NCBI GenBank assembly: GCA_014155875.1
Contig: JACEFZ010017415.1
Coordinates: 1 to 64,000 of the forward strand
Origin: Cepaea nemoralis
Lineage: Eukaryota > Mollusca > Gastropoda > Stylommatophora > Helicidae
Direction of reading: 5' to 3'
Length of the DNA stretch: 64,000 nucleotides
The translations under genes were made by a program, and so were the position numbers. Positions 5,429-52,525 of the stretch are shown piece after piece. Numbering within the stretch: the stretch's first letter is position 1; every line of letters starts with the position of its first letter. The notes under the pieces were generated by a model that ran no database searches, was not told the DNA's origin, and saw nothing but the letters and a program-made list of their open reading frames with translations.

Positions 5429-5452
5429 GTTGATTAATTGACTGATTGATTG

Positions 5453-5487
<35 letters not shown>

Positions 5488-5912
5488 TATGAACCGACAT
5501 CACAGCATTCGGGGCATTCCCATAAGCGCTCCGTCCCCATCCTCAGTAGCCAATGAAGAGTTCCAACACCAATAGTATCAGTAGCAATCTGATTATAATG
5601 TCCGTCTCGCCTATCCTCTGAGCGTCGAGCGTCGGCCAAATCCCCACGTCACTCCTCGCTGTCTCATTCTTGCCAGACCATGGTAATCCATTTGCTCCTC
5701 CGAGGTGTACACGTGCTCCCACAAGGCCGCAACCACGTCTGCCTTATCATGCATCAATACTCCACCAAGTTTTGCAGAGCCAGCCAATCTGTCTGCCTGT
5801 TCATTCCCCAGCACACCAGCATGCCCCGGAGAAAAGATCCAGACGATGTTTGTCACCCGTGACTTCCGAAGCGAAGCAAGCCACTTGGCACAAAGCTTGC
5901 CCGTCCTCACCC
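5429..5912 (-). mobile_element. Nimbus-like LINE 3' fragment with (AATC)n tail
   Basis: Reading the minus strand from 5912, an RNase H C-terminal region is seen (KLCAKWLASLRKSR, then FSPGHAGVLGNEQADRLAG). It continues through a broken frame to the family end motif CDVGS at about 5495, and then an (AATC)n tail occupies 5429-5490. It closely resembles the copy at 39711-40920, which has the same tail unit. The insertion sits inside the endonuclease of RTE-A. No TSD could be seen, and part of the target is missing, so insertion with target deletion is likely. Confidence 0.8.
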
Positions 5913-6491
5913 TTATGGAGGTGAAGATCGACAAAGAGGAGTGGAAATTATTTTGGACCGGAAAACATCAAAATCTGTTCAAGGATATTGGGACGTGTCG
6001 GACAGAGTTCTACTAGTTAAATTAAGTGGCAGACCTTTTAGCATAAATGTTATTCAAGTATATGCCCCAACAGGAGAATCCAGTGAAGATAGTGTAGAGC
6101 AATTTTATAATGACATAGAGTCTGCCTTAAAGAAATGTAAAAATTCAGAAATAAACATCATAATAGGGGACTTCAATGCAAAAGTAGGAAATCAAGGTGA
6201 TATAGTATGTCCCGAAAAGAATGCCTTCATTCACGATCAATTATTTTGAAAATTGTCTGTTGCTTCGGTATGAAATGTTTCATGCCGTCTTATATTTACC
6301 CCCACCCAAGGAATATGTCTTTGATAGGTCCAAAAACAACTTAAATCATCGAAAGCGGCGACATTTCTTTGATGTTTTGCTGAAAAACTAGTGATTTCTC
6401 GCTAACAAATTTATGTTTACAGTAATGAAAGCCCCGCCAATTCAGATGACACACAAGGCGTATCCGGATTCGTATGGGAGTGGGTGCAATG

Positions 6492-13736: not shown

Positions 13737-13879
13737 AGCTCTCCGTGTCAAGAATAAATCCTCACATTGCGTTTAGATCTATTGTGTATGTTGCACTTAC
13801 TCCAGCCCTTTTATTATTTATGTACACTAGTCTTTGACACCACAATGTTGCATCATAGTTAGGGGAGACGTCATGGTGT

Positions 13880-14558
13880 CTAGTGCAGATATTATCTCAG
13901 AGGTATTTATCATATCGTCTATGGTATTATCTCAGAGATATCATACCGTCTAGTGCAAGTATTATCTCAAATGCATCATATCGTCTAGTGGAGATATTAT
14001 CTTCGAGATATTATATCATCTAGTGGAGATATTATCTTCGAGATATTATATCATCTAGTGGAGATATTATCTTCGAGATATTATATCGTCTAGTGGAGAT
14101 ATTATCTTCGAGATATTATATCGTCTAGTGGAGATATTATCTTCGAGATATTATATCGTCTAGTGGAGATATTATCTTCGAGATATTATATCGTCTAGTG
14201 GAGATATTATCTTCGAGATATTATATCGTCTAGTGGAGATACTATCTTCGAGATATTATATCATCTAGTGGAGATATTATCTTCGAGATATTATATCGTC
14301 TAGTGGAGATATTATCTTCGAGATATTATATCGTCTAGTGGGGATATTATCTTCGAGATATTATATCGTCTAGTGGAGATATTATCTTCGAGATATTATA
14401 TCGTCTAGTGGAGATATTATCTTCGAGATATTATATCGTCTAGTGGAGATATTATCTTCGAGATATTATATCGTCTAGTGGAGATATTATCTTCGAGATA
14501 TTATATCGTCTAGTGGAGATATTATCTTCGAGATATTATATCGTCTAGTGGAGATATT
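13880..14558. repeat. 35-bp satellite array
   Basis: Seventeen near-identical 35-bp units start every 35 bases from 13984 to 14544, each beginning TCTAGTGGAGATATTATCTT. Degenerate units occupy 13880-13983. The unit contains a near-palindrome, TATCTTCGAGATA. The array is interrupted at 14559 by a SINE and resumes at 14799. Confidence 0.95.
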
Positions 14559-16558: not shown

Positions 16559-17118
16559 CTGCAGACAATACACAGGGACAGATCAGAGGCAGAGAGTAGG
16601 GACAGCGGGTAGAGACAATACACAGGGACAGATCAGAGTTAGACAGTAGGGACATCCAGTAAATACAATACACAGGGACAGATAAGAGGCGCATAGTGGG
16701 GACAGCCAGAGGAGACAATACACAGGGACATATAGGAGGCATATAGTGGGGACAGCCAGTAGAGACAATACACAGGGACATATAGAAGGTAGACAGTAGG
16801 GACATCGAGTAGAGACAACACACAGGGACAGATATGAGGCATACAATGCGGACAGACAGTAGAGACAATACACAGGGACAGATAGGAGGCATATAGTGGG
16901 GACAGTCAGTAGAGACAATACACAGGGACAGATAGGAGCTAGACAGTGTGGACAGACAGTAGAGACAATACACAGGGACAGATAGGAGCTAGACGGTGCG
17001 GACAGACAGTAGAGACAAAATGCAGGGACAGATAGGAGCTAGACAGTCGGGACAGACAGTAGAGACAATACACAGGGACAGATAGGAGACAGACAGTAGG
17101 GACACCCAGTGGAGACAA
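16559..17118. repeat. 50-bp minisatellite built on a splice-acceptor region
   Basis: About eleven units with a 50-bp period (ACAATACACAGGG at 16565, 16615, 16665, 16715 and so on). The first unit on the exon side includes the polypyrimidine tract and acceptor of the ferlin exon: minus-strand TGTATTGTCTGCAG at the exon against TGTATTGTCTCTAC in the repeats. The array therefore looks like an expansion of the 3' end of the intron. Long Cys/Leu/Ser-rich minus-strand frames here are repeat artefacts. Confidence 0.9.
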
Positions 17119-21324: not shown

Positions 21325-21784
21325 CAGGGCTCCCAGGTCGAGTCAGTCTACAATATTTACAATAAGCCAGGGCTCCCAGGTCGAGTCAGTCTACAATATT
21401 TACAATAAGCCAGGGCTCCCAGATCGAGTCAGTCTATAATATTTACAATAACCCAGCGCTCCCAGGTCGAGTCAGTCTACAATATTTACAATAAGCCAGC
21501 ACTCCCAGGTTGAGTCAGTCTACAATATTTACACTAAGCCAGGGCTCCCAGGTCGAGTCAGTCTACAATATTTACAATAAGCCAGCGCTCCCAGGTCGAG
21601 TCAGTCTACAATATTTACACTAAGCCAGGGCTCCCAGGTCGAGTCAGTCTACAATATTTACACTAAGCCAGGGCTCCCAGGTAGAGTCAGTCTACAATAT
21701 TTACAATAAGCCAGCGCTCCCAGGTCGAGTCAGTCTACAATATTTACAATAAGCCACGGCTCCCAGGTCGAGTCAGTCTACAAT
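21325..21784. repeat. 43-bp minisatellite, about 10.7 copies
   Basis: Units start at 21325, 21368 and so on, each beginning CAGGGCTCCCAGGTCGAGTC, with few substitutions. Confidence 0.95.
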
Positions 21785-25707: not shown

Positions 25708-26830
25708 TAGACGTTCAATGTCACACAAATGCAGTTTATAGACGTTCAATGACTCACAATTACTGTTTATAGACGTCCAATGCCCCACAACTGCAGTTTA
25801 TAGACGTTAAATATCCCACAATTGCAGTTTATAGAAGTTCAATATCCCACACTTACAGTTTATAGATGTTCAATGTCTCACAATTGCAGTTTATAGACAT
25901 TAAATATCCCACAATTGAAGTTTATAGAAGTTCAATATCCCACACTTACAGTTTATAGATGTTCAATGTCTCACAATTGCAGTTTATAGACATTAAATAT
26001 CCCACAATTGCAGTTTACAGACGTACAACGTCACACAAATGCAGTTTATAGATGTTCAATGACTCACAATTGCCGTTTACAGACGTACAACGTCACACAA
26101 ATGCAGTTTACAGACGTTCAATGACTCACAATTGCCGTTTATAGACGTACAATGTCACACAAATGCAGTTTATAGATATTCAATGACTCACAAATGCCGT
26201 TTATAGACGTACAACGTCACACAAATGCAGTTTATAGATGTTCAATGACTCACAATTGCCGTTTATAGACGTACAATGTCACACAAATGCAGTTTATAGA
26301 TGTTCAATGACTCACAATTGCCGTTCATAGACGTACAATGTCACACAAATGCAGTTTATAGATGTTCAATGACTCACAATTGCCGTTTATAGACGTACAA
26401 TGTCATACAAATGCAGTTTAGAGACGTTCAATGCCCTACAATTACAGTTTATAGACGTACAATGTCCCACAATTGCAGTTTATAGACGTTCGATATCTAA
26501 CAATTGCAGTTTATAGACGTACAATGTCACACAAATGCAGTTTATAGACGTTCAATATCCCACAATTTCAGTTTATAAACGTTCAATGTCCCACAATTGC
26601 AGTTTGTAGACGTTAGATGTCCCACTATTGCCGTTTATAGACTACAATGTCACACAATTGCAGTTTATAGACGTTCAATGTCTCACAATTGCCGTGTATA
26701 GACGTTCAATTGCACACATTTGCAGTTTATAGATCTTCAATGTACCACAATTGCAGCTTGTAGACGTTCAGTGTTCCACAATTGTAGTTTGTAGAAGTTT
26801 AATGTTCCACAATTGTAATATTATGTTTGC
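25708..26830. repeat. 31-bp minisatellite, about 36 units, with a 62-bp higher-order unit
   Basis: The basic unit is close to GCAGTTTATAGACGTTCAAT plus GTCCCACAATT. In 26000-26410 two unit types alternate (ACGTACAATGTCACACAAAT and ATGTTCAATGACTCACAATT), forming a 62-bp higher-order repeat, while the flanks are less ordered. This suggests recent unequal exchange in the centre of an older array. Confidence 0.93.
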
Positions 26831-27564: not shown

Positions 27565-29440
27565 TGCACCCGACACAGAAAGAGGAACACGCCAGTTGTA
27601 TTTGCATCATGGGACCATGGTGTAAACAGTATTCCTTTTGACAGGAGGATATTGTTGGATCAGTTATGGATTTACATAGGACGGAGGGAAATCACGAAGA
27701 ACAAGCTTGCTGTGGCCATATTATGCAAGATTTCACTACTGCACCCCATCAGCTGAAAGGATTATGCCTGTGGACTTCGGAACCAACAACAATATATCCT
27801 GGCCTACCACAGGGATCACCATTATCTCCGGTACTGTTCAACGCCTACACAGTGAGAATCACCAGTGAGCAGATCATTGGACCTGGTAGGACACTGTCAT
27901 ATGCCGATGATGTGTTAGTGTATCGTCAGGGTAAGGATAGAGATCAGGTTGCTGTGGAACTACAAACCGAACTCAATCACATAAGTACTTGGTGTGTTGA
28001 AGCTGGGGCAATGGTCAACCCAACAAAGGCAACAGTGACTTGGTTCTCGCTGAATAATCATATTGTCAACACTCCAACACCAACTGTAAAGCTGTGTTCA
28101 GAGACGGTGGAAAGAACGCAGGCAATGAATTAACTGGGGATACGGTTTGATCAAAGCCTTGCTTATAATGAGCACATAGACCAGGTGATAACAAAGGCCA
28201 AGCGGGGTTTGGCTGCGATGCGGGTGATGGCGGCAGCAAACTGTGAGCAGCGCCATCTATGTCTTCTGTACAAGGGGCTAGTCATGTCTGTTTTTGAGTA
28301 TGCAATGGCAATCCTGACTCTCAGCCGTAAGCAGATAAAAAGGATGGAAGGGATACAGAATGAAGCTATGCGCATTATTCTTGGATGTACAAGAGATACA
28401 GCATGCAGGGCGATACGCTACCTTCTTGATTTTCCAACCATTGAAGACAGAATACAAGTTTGCTGAACACGCGCCTACCTCAGAGTTAACGCAAACACAC
28501 AACATCCACTGAATAGTGAAATTATGAAGGTGAAGGGCAGCAGGTTAAAAAGAGGACGGTCGTGGATGGGGCAAGCCGAAGACATTCTTCAATAGGTGTG
28601 TTCACTTGAGGACTTAGAACCTGGCGAGGAGTGGGTACGAGTGCCAACAGATTTCTGCACATCCTTTTCAGTTTTCATCCAACTAGATAGAAAATGCATA
28701 CTAGAAAATCCGGCTTCTGTGGAGGCAAGCGCTGATTTTCGAGATATCGCTAGACGGTGATGCTGTCATCTACACAGATGGGTCGGTCGTCCGACATGTG
28801 AGAAGCTCATGAGCCTTTACGGCTCGGGCCGGAGGGAGAATTGTGAAGGAGGACTCTGGTGCTTTCACTGAAACCACAAGTAGCCTGACTATGGAAGTCA
28901 TGGCAGTAAGTAAAGCAATAACATGGCTAGCGACACAGACATTCACTAGGGCATGTTTCCTTAGTGACTCAATGAACATGATCAAGAGGATAGAGGTGGG
29001 GTGGATCCGAAGAGAATGGTTGCTGTCTCTGGAGCGGTCTCGCCTGGCAAAGATTAGTTTTATCTTCGTGCCAGGGCATGCGGGAGTACAAGGAAATGAG
29101 CGGGCTGACAAGCTCGCAGGTGAGGCTACGGTGGAGGGCGGACGCGCTATGGACCAGGCTGACATTCTGAATGCTCTACGAGAAGTAAGACTTTTGCGTG
29201 AACCAAGTGATGACTGTGAATCTACAACCATGGCCAGACTGTGAGAACAGCAAATTAAAAGAGGGATGGCCAAACAAGAACACTATGCAGGAAGCCAAAG
29301 AAGATTGATAAACCAACACAGAACTGGCGTCGTTAGCCGCTACACGCTGCGGGATTTGCCGAGGAGGGGATCCGAGCACTTATGGACTGAATGGTTCGAT
29401 GTGCAATGAGGATGATCTGTCGACTAACTAACTAACTAAC
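27565..29440 (+). mobile_element. Nimbus-like LINE, subfamily 2, (CTAA)n tail
   Basis: RT and RNase H remnants on the plus strand. TPVVFAS and IPFDRRILLDQLW (diverged motif A region) occupy 27590-27670, then LPQGSPLSPVLFNAY (motif B) and SYADDVLVYRQG (motif C) by 27930. The frame 28185-28466 carries the RT thumb (IILGCTRDT). A gap with stops leads to RNase H at 28760-29240 (VIYTDGSVV, LTMEVMAVSKAITW, FVPGHAGVQGNERADKLAG). The end RGSEHLWTEWFDVQ precedes a (CTAA)n tail at 29424-29440. At least five stops or frameshifts are present. It is closely related to 42219-43274. Confidence 0.88.
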
Positions 29441-29741
29441 TACTCTATGATAGACCAACAGAGAACAAAGCTGCAACTACACTCTATCAAAGACCAACAA
29501 AGAACAAAGCTACAACCATATGGACAAGAAATTTGAGAAGAATAAAATCACGCAGATGTCACAAGTTATGGCAACCTGACACAGAGATTACAAATAACCA
29601 AATCCCAACAAAGGGTCACACGATGAACTAATTTGAAGAGGACACTGACTGGTTCTGACTGCGGAACTGATGAAACAACACATATATCTGTTCACAACTG
29701 TGTGACCATCTCGACGTCAGTTCTTCCAAGCAGTCAGTTTC
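29441..29741. other. Unassigned, short direct repeat
   Basis: Two imperfect copies of an approximately 45-bp stretch (CTCTATGATAGACCAACAGAG / CTCTATCAAAGACCAACAAAG) at 29443-29515; the rest is unassigned. Confidence 0.5.
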
Positions 29742-34334: not shown

Positions 34335-36165
34335 CTCATTCATTCATTTATTCAGTAGCATGTCCTTTGCAGAACCTCGCTCCCATAACAACCTTCCGGA
34401 AAGCTTCTCGATCACAAGCAAGATGTCCCGCGTCTGATACACCCATCTGGAGATCATCCGCCACATCCTGCACCCATCTTCTCTTTGGCCTTCCTCTTCC
34501 TCTCTTCCCAGGCATATACCCTTCCATTATTGTTCTCTCCAAACCTTCGTGACGTTTCAAGTGACCAAAATACTTCAATTTTCTTTGTTTTATCGTCTTT
34601 AATAGCCATCCCTCCTCAATATTCAACTCTTGAAGTATGGATGCATTTGTTCTTTTCTTTACCCAAGATATTCTTAGAACTCGTCTATAACATTTATATT
34701 CAAAGGCGTTTATGCGCTGTTCAGCTTGTTTAGTAAGTGTCCATGTCTCACAGGCGTATGTTGCAATGGGAAAGATGCATGCTCTTAAAAATCTAATTTT
34801 TGTAGTTCTGTCTGTCCCACTCCATAATTTATTCATCTGTTTTAGTCTTTGAAGAGCAATGGATAGTCGCCGTTTAATTTCTTTCATTGTGTCACCGTTA
34901 TTGGTAATCAATGACCCAAGATATTCAAAGTTTTCCACCACCTCCAATTTTTCCCCATTAATGTATATTTCTTTCTCCATGGTAGTTTTATCTGTATGCA
35001 TTATCTTTGTTTTTGCTATATTAAGATATAAGTTGTGATTTTCACTATTCAATTGGGTTGAGGCTATTAGGTTTTCTATGCCATTCTGTGTTGTGGATAG
35101 TAATACTGTATCATCAGCATATCGAATCTCTGGTATGTCATGACCGCCGATATTTAGGGCATCATATAGCTCCCTGTTTATATCATCTCTTACATTTCTC
35201 ATTATATTTTCGGCGTACAGGTTAAACAAATAGGGTGACAGCACGCAGCCCTGACGGACTCCTTGCTTGATGTCAAACCAATCTGATGCCTCGCCATCTA
35301 TTCTAACTGCTGCTTGTTGGTCTAGATAGAGCATTTTTATGAGTTGTACTACATGTGATGGAAAGCCCATAGTCCTCATGATTTCCCAAAGTTTCTGATG
35401 CTGTACACAGTCAAATGCCTTTGAATAATCCACAGAACATGAGTATAGGTTTACATTAAATTCTCTGCACTTCTCTATTATTAAACGCATGTTGAATATG
35501 TGATCTCTTGTTCCTCTTCCTAGTCTAAATCCAGCTTGAACTACGTTAATCTCTTCTTCCATTTTCTTACGAAGTCTTGCCATTATGACTTTTAGTAGGA
35601 TTTTACTTGCATGACTGATCAGGGCAACAGTTCTATAGTTGGTGCATAATTTCAGGTTGCCCTTTTTTGGTATTGGAATGAAGATAGTTCTCTTCCAATC
35701 TTTTGGCCATATACCATATTTCCAAATCTTTGTACATAATGCATGATATATGTGTATGCTTTCTTCTCCTCCCGCTTTAATTAGTTCAGCTGGTATCTCA
35801 TCACATCTAGGAGATTTACCATTCTTCAGGTGCTTTATAGCCCAAGCAATTTCATCTAATGAGGGTTCAGGTTCTGTCTCTGCTGTCGTTGGCTCAAGTA
35901 TCTCATTCATATCCTCACTGTCACTCATATCATACATTCCACTGCACTACTCCTGCCATCTTTCTAGAATTTGTCTAGATTCTGTTAAGGTATTTCCCAT
36001 CTTGTCACAGATAACATTCAATTGAGGTTGAACATTTCTTGTCAATAACTTCATTTCTTTGAACATTTCATAATCTCTTCCAGCCTTATGATATTGCTCT
36101 ATTCTGGTACAGCAATCTTGTATATATTGATTTTTAGTCCTTTCTTGTGTTCTTTCTTATTAGTA
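34335..36165 (-). mobile_element. RTE-D LINE, 5'-truncated, least damaged RT in the window
   Basis: The minus-strand element begins in the connector before the RT at about 36160 and ends just after the ORF with an (AATG)n tail at 34335-34346. The endonuclease is absent. No clear TSD was found. Downstream of the start the RT frame is open for 529 codons, so this is likely the youngest LINE copy here. Confidence 0.85.
34348..35937 (-). pseudogene. RTE-D reverse transcriptase, one nonsense codon upstream
   Basis: A 529-codon frame containing SVDYSKAFDCVQ (motif A Asp at about residue 170), GVRQGCVLSPYLFNLY (226-241), the catalytic RYADDTVLL (YADD at 273-276), FEYLGSLITNN, YACETWTLTKQAEQR, KCYRRVLRISWVKKRTN and a basic GKRGRGRPKRRW near the end. 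All catalytic residues are present. The Met start is not real: the same frame continues upstream with RTKNQYIQDCC and LERWQE, then a TAG where family members have Tyr (EYCSG), then CSGMYDMS. So one substitution, plus 5' truncation, disables it. Confidence 0.9.
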
Positions 36166-37139: not shown

Positions 37140-38900
37140 ATGTATATCCGAAAGAACAATATTAATGCGATCAAAGAAGGCAGTAAAACAACGACTGTTA
37201 TACAAAGATGCGCCCCATATAACGATACTTACAGCGATGAAGACAAAGACGAATATTTTGACAACCTTGCAGATACGTTAAACAATGTCAGTGAAACAGA
37301 TGAAGTTATCGTGATGGGTGATTTCAACGGACATATAGACACAGAAGAATGGGATGAATTCATGGGGTAATTCAGCGACACGGAGACAAAATGAATAGCA
37401 ATGGTGAACACCTACTCAACATATGCTCTGAACAAGGACTAATAATAGCAAATAGCTTTTTTCAACACAGTCGTGGCCACACCAAAACGTGGTATAAATG
37501 GAACAACATAGATCAAGCTTCTCAACATGACTTTATTCTACTTAGGAAATCAGACAGAAGACTATTTATGGATTGAAAAGCACTCCCAAATACAGACATT
37601 GATATTGATCACAAACCAGTCATAATAACAAAAATATTCAACATGCATTCAAGTAAACAACAAAAAGGTAACAACAAATGTCATCAATTATGGGAGGCTT
37701 CAGGAAAATACGGTTAAAGACGAATTCAAACAAGAAATCACAAAGCTACATAAGAACATCCCCGATGATTACTAAAGTGTAGATAAGGAATGGATCATTT
37801 TTAAGGTTGCCATGCTCGATACACTGGAAACTAAATGTGGAACCAAGAAAGTAGGGCAGGACAAAAGATTCAGAACCGCTTGGTGGAAAACGAAGTAAAG
37901 ATAGCGTATTCAGGAAGAAGAAAGCGTTCAAAAAATGGATCACAACTAAATCTGAATAAGACTATGTTACTGACAGAATAGCAAGACGGAATACCAAACG
38001 AACAATTAGAGCATCTAAAGATGAATCCTGGAGAGTATATTGTGAATAAATGGCGACTCTTAGCAATGACTACTCATGACAATTTTATAAACGTGTCAAT
38101 AATATCAGAAACAGATGAATGCTACACCCCAACAACCATCATAAAAGTCAAAAGAGGTATACCATTATTGAATCCACAACAAATCCCACACATAATAGCA
38201 TAGAATGCCTAACTTTTGTGCCTAAAGGCTGTGGACAACAATATCCAAACTTCAACACTGCAGAAGTCAAATCAGTTTTACAAAAAGTCCTAAAGACAAC
38301 GCACCGGGTCTAGATGGAATAACCACAGAAGCTATTCAGGTATGTGGGAAAACAGGAGTTACACGACTGACAAGACTTTTTACTACAGCGTGGGAAGAAA
38401 GAAAGGTCCTAGACGATTGGCAACAGGCAGTAATAGTACCATTATAGACAAAGAAAGGCAATATGAGAGAGTCCGAAACACACAAAGGTTTATCACTCCT
38501 GGGTCATATAGGGAAAATGTACGCAAAACTATTGGAACAAAGAGCTATACCTATAGTTGAACAACAGTTAAGTGAAGTACAATTTGGTTTCAGGAAAGGT
38601 TAAAATAAGTTGCATTGATGCACTTTTCATACTAAGACAACTATGTGAAAAAACCATCGAATATAGTGACCAGCTGAATAATGTGTTTATAGATCAGGAA
38701 AAAGCTTTCGATAGAGTAGACAGATACAGATTATTGACCATCCCTGAAGACTACGGGATACAAGGACAATTCCTAGAAAACAAAATAGCGATACACCACT
38801 CGATCCATAGTGCAATAAGAACACACGAAGGTATATCATGCTCAAAGTCAATAAAGGGGTGAAACAGTGATGTGTGCTCTTTCCTCTGATCTTTAATATC
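37140..38900 (+). pseudogene. RTE-B endonuclease and first part of reverse transcriptase
   Basis: 37140-37370 holds an endonuclease segment (IQRCAPYNDTYSDEDKD, EVIVMGDFNGHID); after a break, 37391-37576 has NGEHLLNICSEQGLIIANS and HDFILLRKSDRR. The connector (37580-38210) has many stops. RT sequence follows: SVLQK, a frameshift, DNAPGLDGITTEAIQ at about 38297-38340, ERKVLDDWQQAVIVP, VQFGFRKG, DQEKAFDRVDR (motif A) at about 38690-38725, and GVKQ-stop-CVLFPLIFNI at 38860-38900, where a Gly codon has become TGA. Confidence 0.85.
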
Positions 38901-39086
38901 TCCATCCATCATATACCATGCTGGTAAGTGTGGGCGGCCATGATTCGCCTTTCATTCGATCACCAGAGTCGTGGATCAGTTCATTGTTCTTGTCTCGACC
39001 ATACCAAGTGGTCAAGTCATCCATATATTTACTTCTCTGTCGTTCCCTTTATTCTCTTCCCCTTGAACTTGATAGTTGTCACCAAG

Positions 39087-39532
39087 AGTAGTACGTGATG
39101 TTCTATTTGACGCTGAAATCAGGAGCGATCCTTTGCAGTGACGTCATATTTTTAACAATATAATAAGTATAGCTCCTACGCCGTGACGTCAAAAAGCGGC
39201 TCCTGATTTGACCTACTTATTCAATCTCGCGCGGTGTTTTTGGTACTTCCGGTCCACTGAGTCACCCGGGCTACAAGGGCAGGTGAGGCTGTGGCCGGGC
39301 AGCGTGGGGTGAGGTGAACCGGACGTCGGCACACGAACCGGCGCGTAGAGTGGTGATCGAACTCAATACGATTGAAATATCGAACCCGAGATGATGATAT
39401 TTCGATTTCACCATTACCCCAATACCATTCAAGGAGAAGTCTCCACCGGCTCTGAATGATAGTCCTGTGACTAGGACAATCACCAAAGCACCTTCCATGG
39501 TTTTACCATGGTCTTCTCAGTCTTATCGATCC
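39087..39532 (+). repeat. Left terminal inverted repeat of the 8.3-kb element
   Basis: Thirty-two of the first 34 bases match the right repeat in reverse complement, and similarity continues to about 39532 (CAGTCTTATCGATCC). It contains two perfect TGACGTCA palindromes (39139-39146 and 39184-39191), the CREB/ATF-type site; the right copy has each one mutated at one or two positions. The interior of the repeat is GC-rich (about 39240-39350). Confidence 0.9.
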
Positions 39533-39707
39533 GAAGGTGATTGTTGTCCATATTGGGTAATGAACGGATACAGTAATGGTAAATTGGACGTGTTACAACG
39601 TCAATAAATTTAGTAAAATCATATAATGGTTTAAAATAGTATCACGGATGTAGATTATCACACACAAATAAGCTTAAAAAATAGAAAATTCTCTTATTCC
39701 AAGAGAA

Positions 39708-39710
<3 letters not shown>

Positions 39711-39752
<42 letters not shown>

Positions 39753-40920
39753 TAGGAACCGACATCACAGCATTCGGGGCATTCCCATAAGCGCTCTGTC
39801 CCCATTCTCAGCAGCCAGCGAAGAGTTCCAACACCAATAGTACCAGTAGCAATCTGATTATATGTCCGTCTCTCATTTCCTCTGAGCGTCGAGCGTCGGA
39901 CAGATCCCCTTGTCACTCCTCGCTGTCTCATTCTTGTCAGACCATGGTGATCCATTTGCTCCTCCGAGGTGTACACGTACTCTCACAAGGCCGCAATCAC
40001 GTCTTCATTGTCATACATCAATACTCCACCGCGTTTTGCCAAGCGAGCCAATCTGTCCGACTGTTCATTCCTCAGCACACCAGCATGCCCCAGAGACAAG
40101 ATCCAGGCGATACTTGCCACCCGTGACCTCCTAAAAGAAGCAAGCCACTCAGCACGAAGCTTGCCTGAACTCACTCTCCTTAGCATGCTTTCTGAATCAG
40201 TTACAATCACGATTTGTATGTGTTGTGTATCGTATTCTCCATCCAGAGGAAAACTGCACTTACCGCCTCCACCTCCATTCTTAAGCTAGATGTTGTGCTA
40301 TCATATGCCAGGCTCTCCTGCACCAAACGTCGACCATTAGCTTTTGCTAAGAACCCCAAGGCACTTCTCCTACCTCTCAACACCGAACCATCTGTGTAGA
40401 TAATCACATCACCCGAGCGAGCATTATCCTCAATTAGTTGCTGGATTTCCACTTCCGTGGCCCCTGCTGGCCACTTCCTGCACTCTCGGCTCAATGTGAT
40501 TATAACTCTGAACAAGTCTGACTGCTCCGCTGGCGCTCTGACCCACTCCTCTCCTCGCCTAATGTTCTCCAAGGGGCATACCTGTCTGATCGTATCCTCC
40601 GCCTGAGCCATCCATGATTTCCATCTTAATTGTCGCTGACCCTTAACTGCGTCCAGCGCCTCATGCAGCGGCTGATCTGTGTCTGCAGCTACTCTGAGGT
40701 ATGCCTTCGCCTGCATCATCTTGAGCCTACCAGCAACAGTCGGCAAACCAAGGATGTAACGCATACACACTACTGGGGTGTCTCTGGTGCATCCCAGAAT
40801 GACCCGCATAGCTTCGTCCTGTATGCGCTCTAATTTCACTAGCTGACTCTTTGAGACAGTGAGCAGTCCTAGTCCATAATTAATCACTGAGAGGATCAAT
40901 TGCTGGTATAGCAGAGTCCA
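39711..40920 (-). mobile_element. Nimbus-like LINE, (AATC)n tail, inside the 8.3-kb element
   Basis: 5'-truncated in the RT thumb (LYQQLILSVINYGLG at about 40910). The minus-strand frame 40207-40962 continues through LERIQDEAMRVILGCTRDTP, RSWMAQAEDTIRQVC and RNase H (DVIIYTDGSVLRGRRS). A frameshift leads to VTDSESMLRRVSSGKLRAEW and GHAGVLRNEQSDRLA (39983-40210), and then 39752-39976 gives the end LRWLLRMGTERLWECPECCDVGS. The tail is (AATC)n at 39711-39750. A diverged TSD, TCCAAGAGAA / TCCATAGGAA, may flank it. Confidence 0.88.
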
Positions 40921-41689
40921 TAGGAATATCGATATATGAAGCCCATAATCGGGCACTCTCACGAAGTTTATACTTCACCTCGACACCGCAAGGTATAATA
41001 ATAATGCGGTTAATTCCATTTTGCTTTATAGAATAAATTGTCTCTTCTTGATATTTCCTCTGGTATTTACACGCGCACAACCGAACAGGGTTAATAATAG
41101 GTCATTCATCTCACGATTTAACGATAAACACAACCAGGCGAAAAGGTAAGAGGGGTGGATGGACCAGCGAACCATATCGACGGATTCTAACCCGTTAAAA
41201 CACGTGACGTGGGTAGGTACGTGAGAAAGTACTCTGAAATAATACACGTTTACAAATGTAACACTTTCATCAAAACTCAGGAATGTGCTAGCCGTTACTA
41301 ACGGATGGATTATGTTTCATTCATCACAATAAAGATAACAATAAATACACATCGTTGGTGGTCTGACCATGGATAAGTACTTGTCGGACTATTTATTGTG
41401 TGTGTGTGGGTGTGTGCCTGCTGCTTATCTGACTCGCTAGCTATCTAGATGCATATATTTCTCCACGCTCCCACACTCACCCACTCTCTCATTCACAACT
41501 TTCTTTTCTTGTTCTGATAAAATTAGTTACCTTGCTTAAGAGTGTCTGTATGCGTGCGTGCGTGCGTGCGTGCGCGCGCGTGTGTGTGCGCGCGCGTGTT
41601 AAGCTAGACTTCTGTCAATCTAACTCGCTCGCTATCTAGCTTCATGTATGAATGGTTCTTTGACATGCTCTCTCTCATTCTCGCTCTCT

Positions 41690-41702
41690 CTAACTCTCTC
41701 TT

Positions 41703-41772
<70 letters not shown>

Positions 41773-41791
41773 TCTCTCTCTTTCTCCACAC
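41690..41791. repeat. (CT)n microsatellite
   Basis: About 34 or more CT units with TTTC interruptions at the right end. Confidence 0.95.
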
Positions 41792-41925
41792 TCCCTCACT
41801 CGCCCGCTCTTTAATTAATCTCTTTCTTTTTCTCATTCTGTTAAATCAGGTGTTACTTTACAGATGTCCTGTGTAAGTATGTAACGCGCTCCATGGATTT
41901 TCATATATCACGCATTCGCTTCCGT

Positions 41926-41978
41926 TTTTTTTTTTTTTTTTTTTTTTTGGGGGGGGGGGGGGAGAGGGGGGGGGGGTT
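41926..41978. repeat. Poly(T)-poly(G) tract
   Basis: About 22 T followed by a G-rich run of about 30 bases with one A interruption. Such tracts are prone to sequencing and assembly error. Confidence 0.9.
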
Positions 41979-42218
41979 TAAAACGGTAAACTGTACATAG
42001 CTTCTTCTTTCTTTCGCTTGAAAAATGTTTATAACTGCAAGGTTGTCTCTTTTTTAGTTCACTCATGGTCCATAGAGTTTATCTTCCACTGTTATCTCTC
42101 TAGACCAGAAGGTTTGCCTAGATATAGTGTATTTTTCTCAGTCTTGGCGTATGTGCCGGTTGTCTGCGACTCCAATCCACATGTGCATCATGGCTGAGCC
42201 ACCAATTTTGAATTTGTA

Positions 42219-43274
42219 TTAGTTAGTTAGTTAGTTAGTTAGTCGACAGATCATCCTCATTGCACATCGAACCATTCAGTCCATAAGTGCTCGGATCCCC
42301 TCCTCAGCAAATCCCGCAACGTGTAGCGGCTAACGACGCCAGTTCTGTGTTGGTTTATCAATCTTCTTTGGCTTCCTGCGTAGTGTTCTTGTTTGGCCAC
42401 CCCTCTTTTAATTTGCTGCTCTCGCAGTCTGGCCATTGTTGTAGATTCACAGTCATCACTTGGTTCTCGCAAAAGTCTTACTTCTCGTAGAGCATTCAGA
42501 ATGTCGGCCTGGTCCATGGTGCGTCCGCCCTCCACAGTAGCCTCACCTGCGAGCTTGTCAGCCCGCTCATTTCCTTGTACTCCCGCATGCCCTGGCACGA
42601 AGATGAAACTAATCTTTGCCAGTCGAGACCGCTCCAGAGGCAGCAACCATTCTCTTCGGATCGACCCCTCCTCTATCCTCTTGATCATGTTCATTGAGTC
42701 GCTAAGGAAACAAGCCCTAGTGAATGTCTGTGTCTCGAGCCATGTTATTGCTTTACTTACTGCCATGACTTCCATGGTCAGGCTACTTGTGGTTTCAGTA
42801 AAAGCACCAGAGCCCTCCTTCACAATTCTCCCTCCGGTCCGAGCTGTAAAGGCCCATGAGCTTCTCACATGTCGGACGACCGACCCATCTGTGTAGATGA
42901 CCGCGTCACCGTCTAGCGAATTCTCGAAAATCAACGCTTGTACTTCAGCCTCAACAGCAGCCGGATTTTCTTGTCTGCATTTTCTATCTAGTTGGATGCA
43001 AACTGAAAAGGATGTGCAGATGTCTGTTGGCACTTACACCCTACTCCTCGCCAGGTTCTAAGTCCTCAGGTGAACACACCTGTTGAAGAATGTCTTCGGC
43101 TTGACCCATCCACGACCGTCCTCTTTTTAACCTGCTGCCCGTCACCTTCCTAATTTCACTATGCAGTGGATGTTGTGTGTTTGCGTTAATTCTGAGGTAG
43201 GCGCGTGCCATGCAACCTTGTATTCTCTCTTCAATGGTTGGAGAATCAAGAAGGTAGCGCATCGCCCTGCATGC
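42219..43274 (-). mobile_element. Nimbus-like LINE, subfamily 2, with TSD
   Basis: A 1056-bp 5'-truncated copy flanked by TTGAATTTGTA (42208-42218) and TTGAATTTTGTA (43275-43286), a target duplication with one base difference. The minus strand begins at RYLLDSPTIEERIQ, continues to RSWMGQAEDILQQVC, and after a frame break gives an open 258-codon frame (42257-43033) covering RNase H: VIYTDGSVVRHVRSSW, LTMEVMAVSKAITWLETQ, FVPGHAGVQGNERADKLAG, ending EHLWTEWFDVQ. The tail is (CTAA)n at 42219-42242. The RNase H frame is intact, so this copy is younger than 27565-29440. Confidence 0.92.
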
Positions 43275-43286
43275 TTGAATTTTGTA

Positions 43287-43957
43287 TACATGTTGTTGCG
43301 TAATCTATTGTGTCCTGTTCAGAGGCGCATGATAAAGACTTGTTCTGGTTTGTTCATAACGTGGTAATCATCGTTTTGGTGGCTTCCTGGCTCATTTCAT
43401 CATTCTTTCCTTTTGGTGGTATGTAACGGTCACAACAGACTGTTCTTTATTTGCTCCTTCCTTATCCAATCAAACAGCTCTGTTGTTTCCGGGTACTCAA
43501 AGTTGGGATGGTATCCACTGTGTAATGGCCTTATGCTGACTACTAAGTTCAGAAAGTAGTGTCCTTAGAACTGGCAATTTCTTGGACAGGAGCGCCTCTA
43601 GCACTGATTTTTCATCTGTCAATGGCACCACAGGTTGTGTACCATGGCTGGTATTTAGTAATTTCAAATAAATACTAAAAGTAATAGTATATACGAGGTA
43701 ATATTAAAAATAGTAGTCTAAAGTAAAAGATGGCAGCACGAGTTAGGACGTCGACTATCGACAACTTCAACGCATATATGAGAATCGGATCGTCAGAAGC
43801 CCTTGAGGTTTTCTATTATATAACTAATAAAAAGTGACCAACTGTGAATTGTAATGGCGGTTAGTACTATCTGTAATGGATGTGACATAAACACTAGCAT
43901 CGTATCAAGGGCGATGTGTTAGAGACACAAGACTCTTCATTGGTTGTGTTATTTTAA
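43287..43957. other. Interior of the 8.3-kb element: unassigned
   Basis: Nothing recognisable. Confidence 0.5.
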
Positions 43958-44290
43958 TGTCTACCACCAGACCACGTGGGTAATGGTAACATCCGGTCAA
44001 AGATGGTGCTGCATCCAATCACATGTCGTTAATGGCTACAACCAGACCATGTGGGTAATGGTCACATCCGGTGAAAGATGACGCTGCATCCGGCCACACG
44101 TGGATAATGGCTAAAGCCGAGACACGTGATTAATGTCTACAAACGGACCAAGAGTAGGAGCTGCTTCCGGTCACATGTGTAAGGGTACAGCCGGACACGT
44201 GGGTGATGGTTACATCCAGTCAAAGATGGCGTCGCATCCGGTTACATGTGTAATGGTACAGTCGAGACACGTGGACACGAGACAGAGGGT
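43958..44290. repeat. Degenerate minisatellite, about 60-70 bp unit
   Basis: Repeated elements ACCACGTGGGTAATGG, ACATCCGGTCAAAGATGG and GCATCCGGTCACATG in the same order four to five times, with many substitutions and deletions. Confidence 0.8.
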
Positions 44291-44524
44291 TACATCAGAA
44301 AAAGTGTGGCGAAACGGTTGTAGAATCAGGGGACTTAACTCATGATGATCGCCATGTATGGGAGTGATTCCACTACCTCGTCAACAGAGCATCGGAAGTT
44401 TAGCATGGTCTCTCTCTCTCTCTTTTCTATAGCCGTTAGGGTGGCCCACCGAGTAAAACCAATGAACATCCCGGCAGCTATTATCTACATATTTCTTGAT
44501 GATGGACTGTGGAGCACACTTTTA

Positions 44525-44554
44525 TGACGTACGTCAGCAGACATCATATATAAA
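44525..44554 (+). promoter_or_regulatory. Promoter-like sequence: 12-bp palindrome plus TATA box
   Basis: TGACGTACGTCA, a perfect 12-bp palindrome related to CRE/ATF sites, at 44525-44536, followed 10 bases later by TATATAAA (44547-44554). About 58 bases after the TATA box there is an ATG and then a consensus splice donor. The spacing fits an RNA polymerase II core promoter. This is inference from motifs only. Confidence 0.4.
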
Positions 44555-44611
44555 TCGTCCAGCATTGGCCGTATAGAAGTAACATTCTCTGACAACAGCA
44601 GCCAGATCAAC

Positions 44612-45305
44612 ATGTGGCACGTTGCTAATGGTAAGTTGGACTTTGATATATCTTTCACATTTTAGTTGTGTTTCTCCAATTCGGTACGCGGTTAACCTAA
44701 CAATACTAGTATAATACAAGGGATATAGGATGCTAGCCGCATTTAACTGAAGAAACAAGACATTTCTTCATATATTATGGTAGGTTGGGGTGAACTGGAA
44801 TAGAGCTGGCATTCGAACTAGCTATTATCGATAGTAATATATGGACTGTTTTAACCGAAGTGTACATGACAGATACAGAGCTATTATTCACAATATGTAG
44901 TTCTATAACTCTGCTATGCTACCTTATTATTATCTATGTTTTACAGATGCGGATGCTCACTACAAACTAATTAAGAAAATGTGGATCATACTAAGAGCGG
45001 AACCATACAGCCATTGCATGGCGGGTCTTAATATCCCACACAATCAAGAAGTAGAGAATCCATTCATACATTCTTGTGATAAAGGTGATGGTGGTAGATT
45101 TATGGACCCAGTAACGGTTAGATTGCAGGATGTACTACAACATAAATTCATCTTTATTGTTTCCAATCTGAATATTTCATGTAGAAATTTAATTTTTAAT
45201 TTGTGTGCAATTTTGTTGTTTAAATTTTATGTTTTTCATTCAACGATAGTGACTTATTGCATAAGATACTTTTCATTTTCTGAAATACAGCTGTTGTTTC
45301 GATAA
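44612..45305 (+). CDS. Candidate two-exon gene in the 8.3-kb element, unknown function
   Basis: Exon 1 (44612-44630) encodes MWHVAN plus one base and ends at a strong donor, ATG|GTAAGT. The intron is 44631-44946, with a T-rich acceptor CTATGTTTTACAG. Exon 2 (44947-45305) continues in frame: DADAHYKLIKKMWIILRAEP, then SHCMAGLNIPHNQEVENPF, HSCDKGDGGRFMDPVTV and a hydrophobic, Phe/Tyr-rich C-terminus to a stop; 125 residues in total. It resembles no family I know. The last 60 bp overlap a dispersed repeat also at 22672, so the true gene, if any, may end earlier. No poly(A) signal is seen nearby. Confidence 0.3.
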
Positions 45306-45539
45306 GGGACAGACGATTATCTCCCGCAGGTTGGGAAATTTGCCCAGTCAGCAGAAAAACCAGTTGTGTTTTAATCAAAGAGAATGTTAGTGTTAAGTGG
45401 TATGAAATGTTGAAAGTCGGTTAGAAGATGTAGTAGATGGTATTCAAGGGATCTATAAGGTAGACGTGGTTTTAAGAAAGGCCGACTTCATAACACACAC
45501 TGCTAGTTGGTTGTCAACTTGACGGTATTTAGGGTGTGA

Positions 45540-46930
45540 AATGACAAAGTGAGATATTTTTCCCATTTGGATAACAAATTTTCGTGCTTTTCATAAGTTT
45601 CGATGAGATATTTAAAAACTTGGTTGCAATATGTTTTTACTTGGCCAATATTTTCCACATTTGGTTAAAAAAGTTTCCTACTTTTTTCTATACTTGGCAA
45701 ATATTTATTTTACTCATTTATTTAACAAAATTTCATAATTTTATAAGTTTCCTTGAGATATTAGCAAGTTTGGTTGGAATACGTTTTTACTTGGCAAATA
45801 TTATTCACATTTGGTTAACAAAGTTTCCTACTTTTTTCTTTACTTGGAAAATATTTTTTACATGTGGTTAACAAAGTTTCATACTTTTTATAAGTTTCGC
45901 TGAGATATTTGCAAGTTTGGTTAAAATATATTTTTACTTGGTAAATATTTTTCACATTTGGTTTACAAAGTTTAATACGTTTTGTTCTTTAATTGGCAAC
46001 TATTTTTCACATGTTGATTGATAAAGTTTCCTATATTTTATAAGTTTGGCTGAGATATTTTCAAGTTTGATTGAAATATGTTTTTACCTGGCTAATATGT
46101 TTTCCCATTTGGTTAACATGATTTCCCACTTTTTCATAAGTTTGGATGAGATATGTTGTTACTTGAAATATTTTTTCACCTTTGGTTAACAAAGTTACCA
46201 ACTTTTCCTAAGGTTGTGCGAGATTTGTATACGTCTGGTCGAGATATTTCTGTACTTGGCCAATGTTTTTTTCCATTTGGTCAACAAATTTCCTACTTTG
46301 TTTAAGTTTTTCTGAGATATTTATAAGTTTGACAAATATTTTTCTCTTTTGGCCAACAACGTTTCCAACGATTTAATACGTTTGGCAGAGTATTTACAAG
46401 TTTGGTTGAAATAAATTTTTACTTTATCATCATCAAGTGCCGTGCAGACTGGCCTGGGTGTTCATGACTCTCCACGATCTCGGTCTTTGGTTTTCTGGAT
46501 CAACTCTGCCGTTGATATTCTTCCATGCCACCGTCGCAATCCATCCAGCATCATTTCTCGTGGTCTGCTTCTGCCTCTCTTCCCTTCGATCTTTCCAGTT
46601 GTCACGATGTTCTCCAGCGCCTCTCTTCTCGTCGCATGACCCAAAAAAGCTCTTTGTCTCTTTCTTATTGTTGTATATAATGTTCTAGTTTCATTAGCCT
46701 CTTAAAGGCATTTCTTGTTAGTTACTTTAGCAGTCCAAGATATTTCCACCTTTTTTTTTTTTACTTGGCCAATATTTTTCACATTTGGTTAACAAATTTT
46801 CCTACTTTTAATAAGTTTGGTCGAAATATATCTGTATTTGGCCAACGTTTTTCCCATTTGGTTAACAAGGTTTCCTACTTTTCATAAGTTTGGATGATAA
46901 ATGTCTTTACCTGGCCAATATTTTTCCGGA
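45540..46930. repeat. AT-rich degenerate tandem array
   Basis: Two motifs alternate irregularly: TTTTTACTTGGCCAATATTT with CACATTTGGTTAACAAAGTTTCC, and CATAAGTTTGGATGAGATATTT. Spacing varies between about 50 and 150 bp. The array is interrupted at 46425-46745 by an RTE-C fragment and resumes afterwards up to the right terminal repeat. Confidence 0.85.
46425..46745 (-). pseudogene. RTE-C LINE 3' fragment inserted in the AT-rich array
   Basis: Minus strand: GHATRREALENIVTTGKIEG, RGRSRPREMMLDGLRRWHGR and ISTAELIQKTKDRD, the RTE C-terminal region with an open 60-codon frame (46462-46644). The 3' end carries (GAT)n at 46425-46432. Array sequence TTTTTACTT stands on both sides, consistent with a target duplication. 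Confidence 0.8.
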
Positions 46931-46933
46931 TTT

Positions 46934-47393
46934 TCCGGATTGATAAGACTGTGATGGTAAAACCATGAAAGATGCTTTAGTGATTGCCAAGTCACCGGAC
47001 TATCATTCTGAGCCGGTGGTGACTTCTCCTTGAATGGGGTCTGGGTAATGGTAATATCGAAAAACCATCATCTCGGGTTAGATCTGTCAATCGTATTAGG
47101 TTCGATCACAATACACCGGCGCCTGTTCTTGTGCCCTGTACCGACGTCCGGTTCGCCTCACCCAGCGCGCCCGTCCACCGCTTCACCCGCCTTTTCGCTT
47201 CGCCCGCTCTGGTCACCTGGAAGATCCATTAGACCGGAAGTACCAAAACACCGCGCAAGATTCTCATAAGTCTATCAAATCAAAAGCCGCTTTTTGACGT
47301 TAAGGCGTAGGAGCTATACATTTTATATAGTAAAATATTACGTCACCGCGTATGATTCTGATTTCAGCGTCAAATACAGCATCACGTACTACT
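46934..47393 (-). repeat. Right terminal inverted repeat of the 8.3-kb element
   Basis: Reverse complement of 39087-39532 with substitutions and small indels; ends ACGTACTACT just before the second ACCAAG. Confidence 0.9.
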
Positions 47394-48623
47394 ACCAAGT
47401 TCTCCCATTTGTTTCCTCTCATAAAATGTTCGAAAAAATGTGACTGTCCACGTATAATTTCTCTAATCAGTTTACGATTTTCATTTGTTTCTTGTAGGAC
47501 TACGTAGTTGGTTTTTCTGTCTGTCCATGGTATTCTTTGCATTCTCCTAGGGAACCACATTTCCACAGCCATCAGATGTTTTTCAGCTTGACTGCTCATT
47601 GTCCATGCTTCACATCCATACAAAACTCTCTAACAGGCTCTATATAGCACCTCAACACTCTTTTTCTCGTAGCAATTGACATCTTTTTATTGGTCAGTAT
47701 GTTTTTCATCTTGCAATAGGCTGCCTTCGCCATGGCGATTTTTGTTCTAATCTCATTAAAGCATCTCCCATCAGCTGTTATGACTGTTCCGAGATAATTA
47801 TACTGCTTCACTTGTTTAAGAATGTTCCCATTTACCTGTATATTACATTGTGGTATTTCGTTCTTCCTAGTGACGATCATAAGCTGTGTCTTTTATAAAT
47901 TAATTCTAACCCTAGTCGTGTACTGTGTGCAACAACCGTATCTACTAAATGTTGCAGATCCTGCTCATTGTCTGCAGTCAATGCATCATCATCATCTGCA
48001 TATCTAATGTTGTTGATGTTTCTACCTCCAAAGATGATTCCTTTCATATCTTGTACTTTTCTGAAAATAGTTTTACTATACAGGGAAAACAGATCTGGAG
48101 ACATTACACATCCCTGTCTCACACCTCTCTTAATAGGCTGATATTGACCTACTTCATTATCAATTATTATGGCAGCTTGTTGTTTCCAATATATGGTTGC
48201 TGTTTTTGTTTTTTTTTTATCTAAGGTTTCTCCCATCAATTTGTAGATTTGAAAGCATCTCTATCATGTTGACTTGATTTACTCTATCGAAAGCCTTTGT
48301 GTAGTCTATAAAGCAAAGATGTATATCTTTATTTACATTCAATTACTGTTCTCTGCATATACACAGCATTTACTGTACCCACACTGTTCTTCTCCTATTT
48401 CCGGTTGTATCTTCTTCCTCACTCTTTGCATGATAATTCTTAGCAAAGTCTCCATGATGTGGCACATTATACTAATTGTTCTATGTTGATCACATTCCAA
48501 GGCTCCTAATTTAATATCAGAATATCCAAAAAGGTAATCCTTGACAGAACAGATTTAGACAATTTTGAACACTTTACTTCAGATGAAACAGCAGATCCAT
48601 ATGCAATAAATGAACTTCTCTTT

Positions 48624-49911
48624 AGTCATTAGTCGCGGTTCCAACATTACAGCAAAAAGTCGTCCCCATTATACTCCATTTCCGTGTCAGTGAATACCAC
48701 ATAAAATGTTCCCCACTGCCCCATGTGAAAAGTGGAAAAGACAGGAGTCTCGACAAACAACGGCCCGCTCAGGCACACTGTGCATAATGCCGCCGCCAGA
48801 ATGTCACCACAAAAGTCCTCTACGAAACATACAGTTCATCCTTGATGGAATTGACAGTCACTTTCCCAACCAGATGTTCACCTACAAAGTCTCGATGTTT
48901 CTAGATGTTGTTGTTCCGTTTCTAGATGTTTCCTAGCCAGCCACGCCATTTTTCCTCCGAAATGCAGTTCACGCAACAAAACAACCTCGGACAGATGTAA
49001 AAACAATTCACTGTACATAATACCGTCGCCAGAATGCCACACAAAAGTCCTCTACGAAACATACAGTTCATCCTTGATGGAAGCGGCAGTCACTTTCCCA
49101 ACCAGATGTTCGCCTACAAAGTCTCGATATTTCTAGATGTTGTTGTTCCGTTTCTAGATGTTTTCTAGCCAGCCACGCCATTTTGTCTCCGAAATGTAGT
49201 TCACGCAACAAAACAACCTCGAACAGATGTAAAGAAACATTTCACTGTACATAATGCCGTCGCCAGAATGCCAACACAAAAGTCCTCATCGAAAACACAG
49301 TTCATCATCGATGGAAACGGCAGTCACTAGAAAATCAGCAGCCACACATTTCTGCATAAGGCAAGAAAAACCGGTCGCTTCTGCGACACACCAGCCGCCA
49401 TACATGCAGATATTTCTAGATGTTGTTGTTCCGTTTCTAGATGTTATCTAGCCAGCTACGCCATTTTTCGAGCATGCAGTTCACGCCACAACACCTCGGA
49501 CAGATGTTAAAAACATTTCACTGTACATAATGCCGTCTCCAGAATGCCAAAACAACAGTCCTCCACGAAAGCACAGTTCATCGTCAAAGGAAGCGGCAGT
49601 CAACCAGAAGACCAGCAGCCACACATTTCTGCATAAGGCACAAAAACCGGTCAGTTCTGGGACATAGCCAGCCGACATTGCTCTGAACATGCAGTTCACG
49701 CTCCACAACCTCGGGCAGATTTAAAAGCATTTCACACGAAATTCACAGCTCACAGCGTCGCGCCACGCACTCAACTCAGTAGCAGGGCGACGGAACCACA
49801 AACTACCAGTCCAACATGAGGAAAATGCGAATGCAACGGTAGCCACGAGCATAAACACCCAGAGGCCTTAACCGTTTCACTGCCTATCCTCCATGTTCGT
49901 GACCGGAAGTG
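48624..49911. mobile_element. 1.29-kb element of unknown class with 12-bp TSD
   Basis: Inserted in the RT of RTE-B between LLF and ADDQ. GAACTTCTCTTT flanks it at 48612-48623 and 49912-49923. Four internal copies of an approximately 234-bp unit start near 48795, 49029, 49262 and 49538, with shared blocks CCAGAATGCC, AAAGTCCTC, TAGATGTTGTTGTTCCGTTT and CAGTTCACGC. There is no poly(A), no clear terminal inverted repeat and no ORF. A 12-bp duplication suits retroposition or a MULE-like transposon, but I cannot assign it. Confidence 0.7.
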
Positions 49912-52177: not shown

Positions 52178-52525
52178 TCATCATCATCACCAAGTGCCCT
52201 GCCATCTGGCGTAGGCGTTCATGGCTATCCTCAGACCTCGGTCTTTGGTGTTCTGGATAAAGTCTGCTGATAATATTTCACCATGCCACTGTCTCAGTCC
52301 ATCCAGCATCATTTCTCTTGGTCTGTCTCTGTCTCTCTTCTCCTCGAACTTTCCAGTTGTCACGATGTTTCCAACGCCTCTCCTCTCATCACATGGCAGA
52401 GGAAAGCTGTCTGTCTCTTATTTTGTTGTATATAATGTTCTAGTTTCATTAGCCTGTTTCAGGCAATCGTTTTTAGTTACTCTGGCAGTCCAAGGAATTT
52501 GCAACATTCGTCTCAGGAACATCTC
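52178..52525 (-). pseudogene. RTE-C LINE 3' fragment
   Basis: Same C-terminal region as 46425-46745 and 22265-22560, with (ATC)n at the left end (52178-52190, the tail of the minus-strand element). The frame is broken. Confidence 0.75.

Follow-up and report, generated by a model that had tools for sequence, protein, structure and literature searches.

A dispersed family of gene-poor elements with Polinton/Maverick-type ends in the snail Cepaea nemoralis, probably replicated and integrated in trans

Introduction

How does an element move that has the ends of a Polinton/Maverick transposon and none of its known genes? The question is raised by a 64,000-nucleotide stretch of the snail Cepaea nemoralis (assembly GCA_014155875.1, contig JACEFZ010017415.1, positions 1 to 64,000; here denoted the window), which carries at 39087 to 47393 an 8.3-kb element bounded by terminal inverted repeats (TIRs) and a 6-bp target-site duplication (TSD). 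The original prediction, made from the sequence alone, had proposed a gutted or non-autonomous Polinton, or else a new foldback family. Polinton replication is generally taken to start at the ends by protein priming; to our knowledge, the action of their machinery in trans has hardly been explored.

We consider it likely that this is a non-autonomous element with Polinton/Maverick-type ends, one member of a dispersed family, which is replicated and integrated in trans. Since no known Polinton gene was found, only one small gene of unknown kind, the element probably moves by borrowed machinery. New here are the gene, which is predicted to be spliced and was seen at 4 of the 16 loci, a dyad that covaries and surrounds TGACGTCA sites, TIRs ranging from 88 bp to 3.1 kb and a 703-bp miniature. 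The phrases non-autonomous (or nonautonomous) Polinton or Maverick were absent from open PubMed Central (PMC) papers, where only "Polinton-derived" occurs, in three papers, the search leaving subscription papers and Repbase aside. Related papers may already describe such a family, and some Polintons of the non-autonomous kind may be entered in Repbase.

Results

The 8.3-kb structure was inserted with duplication of 6 bp of its target

Self-comparison of the window aligned two facing TIRs with 78% identity over 473 columns (E ~1e-101), rising to 94% in the outermost 36 bases of both arms. The limits predicted earlier, 39087-39532 and 46934-47393, proved correct to within 2 bp, and the hexamer ACCAAG was found, as claimed, on either flank, matching in all six bases:

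39081..39086, no strand: left TSD, ACCAAG
39087..39533, plus strand: left TIR, starting AGTAGTACG; related ends at 16 independent loci
46936..47393, minus strand: right TIR, ending ACTACT
47394..47399, no strand: right TSD, ACCAAG

The element interrupts a long interspersed nuclear element (LINE) on the minus strand, whose parts lie at 47412-48512 and ~38893-39086. When the element and one hexamer were deleted in silico, the host LINE aligned over the junction to all three window LINE copies tested, bearing out the continuity that had been noticed before. LINE copy B represents the unoccupied target almost base for base (GTTGTCACCAGTTTC, against GTTGTCACCAAGTTC in the joined site), and the two remaining copies are gapped by 7 and 20 bases, at the insertion site or close to it. 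The facing repeats did not arise by chance: they bound an element that was inserted here and duplicated 6 bp of its target.

The element measures 8307 bp, or ~5.7 kb once nested insertions are subtracted. Its TIR arms are 0.174 substitutions per site apart, indicating that the window copy is old; this amounts to ~0.09 substitutions per site for each arm if the arms were identical at insertion. Slower decay at the tips of the arms was considered and rejected (2 of 36 versus 65 of 396 sites, Fisher p 0.095).

The ends recur at 16 independent loci

We searched the genome (3.47 Gb, 26,579 contigs) with the first 200 bp of the TIR and obtained 308 candidates, 40 of which scored as matches. Stretches were examined for 28 of the 40, leaving out the other 12, and these represent 19 places including the window. 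Three places duplicate others, as judged by identical flanks (C2402 and C26172, C25812 and C20390, C3886 and the window), leaving 16 independent loci. A facing partner end was found in nine: the window, C613, C25047, C25723, C12470, C26385, C9135, C6307 and C13456, the last being a 703-bp pair.

The hexamers flanking these nine pairs matched in all six bases once, in five bases five times, and in four (C25723), three (C12470) and two (C613) bases once each. Thus at least five of six bases agree in six of the nine pairs, where the random expectation is 19/4096 per pair; among the lengths of 3 to 10 compared, none other than 6 stands out. The interior arrays described below and other stretches are common to the window, C25047, C25723, C9135, C26385 and C6307.

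Conserved ends contain a covarying dyad

We aligned 24 ends, setting aside those of the three duplicate places and, because of its decay, the left one of C12470. The start AGTAGT is exact in 18 ends and one base off in the remaining six. Conservation is strong at the outermost bases, weaker over the next ~25, and returns in a core extending to about base 165. The palindrome TGACGTCA, which resembles a cAMP response element (CRE), lies inside the first 110 bases of 17 ends, and a dyad, ATCAGGAGCCGCT...AGCGGCTCCTGAT, encloses these sites in the TIR. In the left TIR of the window they are arranged as follows, the dyad arms being assigned by covariation over the 24 ends:

39118..39129, plus strand: subterminal dyad, arm 1 (ATCAGGAGCGAT)
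39139..39146, no strand: first TGACGTCA
39184..39191, no strand: second TGACGTCA
39195..39207, plus strand: subterminal dyad, arm 2 (AGCGGCTCCTGAT)

Counting Watson-Crick pairs only, 232 of 299 cells are paired over the 24 ends, a number reached by none of 2000 shuffles, and 15 paired cells have changed on both sides, reached by one of 2000; kinship among sequences can beat shuffles without any structure, and the slid controls agree with the dyad, the paired cells falling to 62-99 when the partner is moved by 1-3 bases. At two covarying positions A-T has become T-A, in four and five ends. The dyad may act as a hairpin or as a pair of protein sites.

The combination of ends is that of Mavericks. 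In PMC8097293 the commonest end motif of vertebrate Mavericks is (AGT)2//(ACT)2, with a 6-bp TSD and a mean TIR of 402 bp. Intact vertebrate elements are reported to have TIRs of 46-1447 bp, a total length of about 12.7-24.6 kb and intronless genes. Our element shares the (AGT)2//(ACT)2 ends, the 6-bp TSD and TIRs of hundreds of bp; the window arms (447 and 458 bp) fall inside the Maverick range, whereas the 3.1-kb arms of one copy fall outside. It differs in its length of 8.3 kb (~5.7 kb without nested insertions), in that we found no gene for a polymerase B, an integrase, an ATPase, a protease or a capsid, and in the 316-bp intron predicted in its own gene.

The interior carries nested repeats, arrays and no known Polinton gene

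The interior contains ~2.6 kb of later nested insertions (two LINE 3' ends and a 0.3-kb repeat) in addition to a small gene, predicted to be spliced, at 44612-45149, which the original prediction left unmentioned, and its right half is partly filled by arrays of 75-bp and 73/150-bp units:

39709..40960 (inner limit approximate), minus strand: 3' portion of a nested LINE, inserted secondarily, with RNase H remnants and a (GATT)n tail; 89% to window 5444-5913, 65% to 3269-4416
42219..43275, minus strand: 3' portion of a nested LINE, inserted secondarily, carrying RNase H and a (TTAG)n tail; 94% to window 28400-29442
43954..44274, plus strand: tandem array of ~75-bp units, common to other copies
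45554..46424, plus strand: array of ~150-bp (73-bp) units, common to other copies
46426..46748, strand not assigned: dispersed repeat nested within the array; 81% to window 52183-52503
46756..46933, plus strand: remainder of the array

We compared the window interior with Pfam in six frames, with stops read as X. Only the RNase H of a nested LINE exceeded the cut-off; we rejected RNase H as a gene of the element itself, for it is part of nested LINEs that recur in other parts of the window. There was no match to protein-primed polymerase B, to a retrovirus-like integrase, to a P-type transposase, or to a packaging ATPase, protease or capsid, although Pfam may lack Polinton-specific capsid models. 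The earlier claim that known Polinton genes are absent from this copy agrees with the scan.

Among the other copies, C6307 spans 21.3 kb and was a candidate for a full-length Polinton. The six-frame scan of its interior (pieces L029 and L030) rejected this: all that exceeded the cut-off came from a LINE and an element of Gypsy type; an integrase zinc-binding domain present there sits with Gypsy-type reverse-transcriptase domains and is read as part of the nested Gypsy. Elsewhere we scanned 10 of 98 stop-to-stop open reading frames (ORFs) of at least 130 residues (L010-L032, L029 and L030 excepted), which returned LINE domains and one weak match to DDE_Tnp_1_7. In these scanned parts no transposase of the family's own was seen; the domains met there came from nested LINE and Gypsy insertions and from a weakly matching, piggyBac-like fragment. 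Among the copies read, subject to the same partial scan, no bigger copy carrying Polinton genes was found.

A small gene with a predicted intron is present in some copies

Between the arrays lies a predicted two-exon gene, downstream of a TATA-like box:

44547..44554, plus strand: TATA-like box preceding the gene
44612..44630, plus strand: predicted exon 1 (MWHVAN)
44631..44946, plus strand: predicted intron of 316 bp, GTAAG...TTTTACAG
44947..45149, plus strand: exon 2, with homology to both P0001 and P0002

The ORF at 44901-45305 aligned to P0001, encoded on a 908-bp contig, with 59% identity over 82 residues (E 1.2e-22), and a profile search reached a second homologue, P0002; searches of the protein collection gave no others. 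The predicted intron runs GTAAG...ACAG. The window gene lacks its 3' part, as homology stops at 45149. As far as the loci were read, the gene, often damaged, is present in 4 of the 16: the window, C25723, C26172 (and its duplicate C2402) and C6307, which has an additional partial copy in opposite orientation.

The ratio of nonsynonymous to synonymous change (dN/dS, omega) in ten pairs was 0.34-0.57 in eight and 0.95 in window-L013, with one pair undefined because dS was saturated. These values suggest past constraint on the small gene; with few sites and an L020 sequence that is unreliable after rearrangement, we rejected them as proof of selection. Pfam and Protein Data Bank (PDB) searches with the protein gave nothing credible, and pattern searches for it among viral contigs gave 39 and 111 stretches, none of them confirmed. 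AlphaFold models had a mean predicted local distance difference test score (pLDDT) of 38 (3 rows) and 59 (6 rows), and Foldseek returned 16 matches in PDB, the best at E 2.7 and none usable. The modelled 142-residue protein appears helical, too weakly for a named fold. Its gene may have come from a helper as an accessory or have been captured from the host.

In C26172, close to the shared gene, L020 6457-6945 (minus strand) contains the piggyBac-type DDE_Tnp_1_7 match, under the cut-off at E 0.0013; it is probably a nested insertion.

Fold-back and miniature copies

TIR length varies from copy to copy: 88 bp in the 703-bp element, ~240 bp in C26385, 310 bp in C9135, 450 bp in the window, 490 bp in C12470, 1.1 kb in C25723 and ~3.1 kb in C25047. 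The C25047 copy (L012 501-7716) is a near-complete fold-back, its ~3.1-kb inverted arms aligning in several pieces around a middle of less than 1 kb, with a TSD matching in five of six bases. The earlier term foldback is partly borne out by this copy. At the other extreme, the miniature in C13456 (L019 8849-9551) has both ends, a TSD matching in five of six bases and an inverted repeat of ~88 bp within 703 bp.

Discussion

As a Polinton proper the element fails: it has no Polinton gene, the wrong size and an intron. As something working like a non-autonomous Polinton it passes, as far as its sequence can tell, the tests based on its ends. The original prediction was partly right. Its Polinton/Maverick guess has good support as regards the ends: the AGTAGT...ACTACT ends, 6-bp TSDs and long TIRs recur through the family. 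The word gutted describes the missing Polinton genes but not the whole, which is a dispersed family with a common interior, a small gene in some copies and a 703-bp miniature.

We propose that the protein-primed polymerase B of a helper Polinton would copy the linear element from its ends, and that the doubled AGT would let the polymerase rebuild the tip by jumping back. PMC8097293 expects Maverick end repeats to permit this in protein-primed replication, and sliding or jumping back in such replication is treated in PMC3480470. The helper's DDE integrase would then join the ends to the target with a 6-bp stagger, and the dyad with its two TGACGTCA sites could serve as an origin or enhancer to which a factor of the helper or the host would bind. 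TIR growth and near-complete fold-backs may be due to template switching on a linear molecule whose strands are displaced as it is copied from its ends. Should this be true, a family that retains doubled AGT ends, 6-bp TSDs and a covarying origin-like dyad, and in which no known Polinton gene is found, would show which end sequences are enough, would offer a natural minimal substrate on which to test protein-primed transposition, and would extend the parasite-of-a-parasite pattern to Polintons.

More tentatively, the family could be a satellite of Polintons that evolves separately, keeps only a protein-primed origin, integrase ends and a spliced gene of its own, and throws off snap-back and miniature copies. 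By analogy, those snap-backs and miniatures might resemble the satellite and defective genomes of linear DNA viruses.

Several observations weigh against borrowed Polinton machinery. The link to Polintons is through the ends, and no Polinton gene or remnant, nor a helper Polinton, was seen in the scanned parts. The motif at the ends was matched to vertebrate Mavericks, for which it is described, and not to a Polinton of this host. An intron is predicted in the single gene; intact vertebrate Mavericks, by contrast, are reported to lack introns. Two of the nine pairs, C613 and C12470, are without a convincing TSD, the left end of C12470 being decayed. Viral contigs gave 0 matches to the 36-bp end and 0 to each of two patterns for the TIR core. 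Finally, single TIRs without a partner, which the original prediction had named as a sign against it, account for 7 of the 16 independent loci, no partner being met within the 9.5-15.6 kb read inward (C26172 was followed furthest, and one of the stretches was readable only in part); with a partner at the other 9, the outcome is mixed.

The strongest alternative, which we regard as unlikely, is a DNA transposon that moves by cut-and-paste, belongs to an undescribed superfamily with 6-bp TSDs, has its own transposase in unread copies and acquired AGTAGT by convergence. The absence of Polinton genes from what was scanned would suit it, and the single ends could come from larger copies. IS3EU and GingerRoot also produce 6-bp TSDs; according to PMC10045372, however, IS3EU ends in TA..TA and GingerRoot mostly so, occasionally in TG..CA, unlike the AG..CT ends and AGTAGT start of our element. 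Ginger1 and Ginger2 differ as well, with TGT ends and TSDs of 4-5 bp (PMC2836005 and PMC10045372). A doubled AGT together with a 6-bp TSD and a long TIR is a specifically Maverick combination. A different transposase within the family had also been named beforehand as contrary evidence, and in the scanned parts none beyond the nested and fragmentary ones was seen.

A decayed relic of an autonomous Polinton, its genes lost by decay or deletion and with no separately propagating family, seems to us improbable. The divergence of the TIR arms, the nested insertions and the truncated gene of the window copy would fit such a relic. Independent copies, however, have the same non-Polinton interior, with arrays in C25047, C25723, C9135, C26385 and C6307, and therefore the gene-poor form itself was copied, the sharing pointing to a single origin followed by spread; the gene is present also in C25723, C26172 and C6307, and the 703-bp copy has a TSD of its own. 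Miniature inverted-repeat transposable elements (MITEs) and similar derivatives share the gene-poor interior, the ends of an autonomous class and the miniature, but our element has the ends of a self-replicating class, a shared gene in some copies and long variable TIRs.

Galileo has a P-type transposase and 7-bp TSDs. It is very improbable, and already disfavoured, that our element is a foldback or a Galileo-like member of the P superfamily whose long TIRs are internally repeated: that reading would explain the variable inverted arms, the near-complete fold-back copy and the repetitive interior with arrays near the right TIR, but not a 6-bp TSD, AGTAGT ends, a conserved TIR core that is not a tandem array, or the lack of a P-type transposase in the Pfam scan.

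Other features of the window

Directly past the interrupted LINE, 48776-49678 consists of tandem repeats of 232 and 276 bp. Further arrays lie at 25708-26815 (~36 copies of a 31-bp unit), 13878-14558 (35 bp), 16563-17118 (50 bp) and 21325-21784 (43 bp). Amid more broken LINE copies, 34348-35946 on the minus strand retains an uninterrupted reverse-transcriptase ORF of 532 residues (RVT_1, E 1.4e-36).

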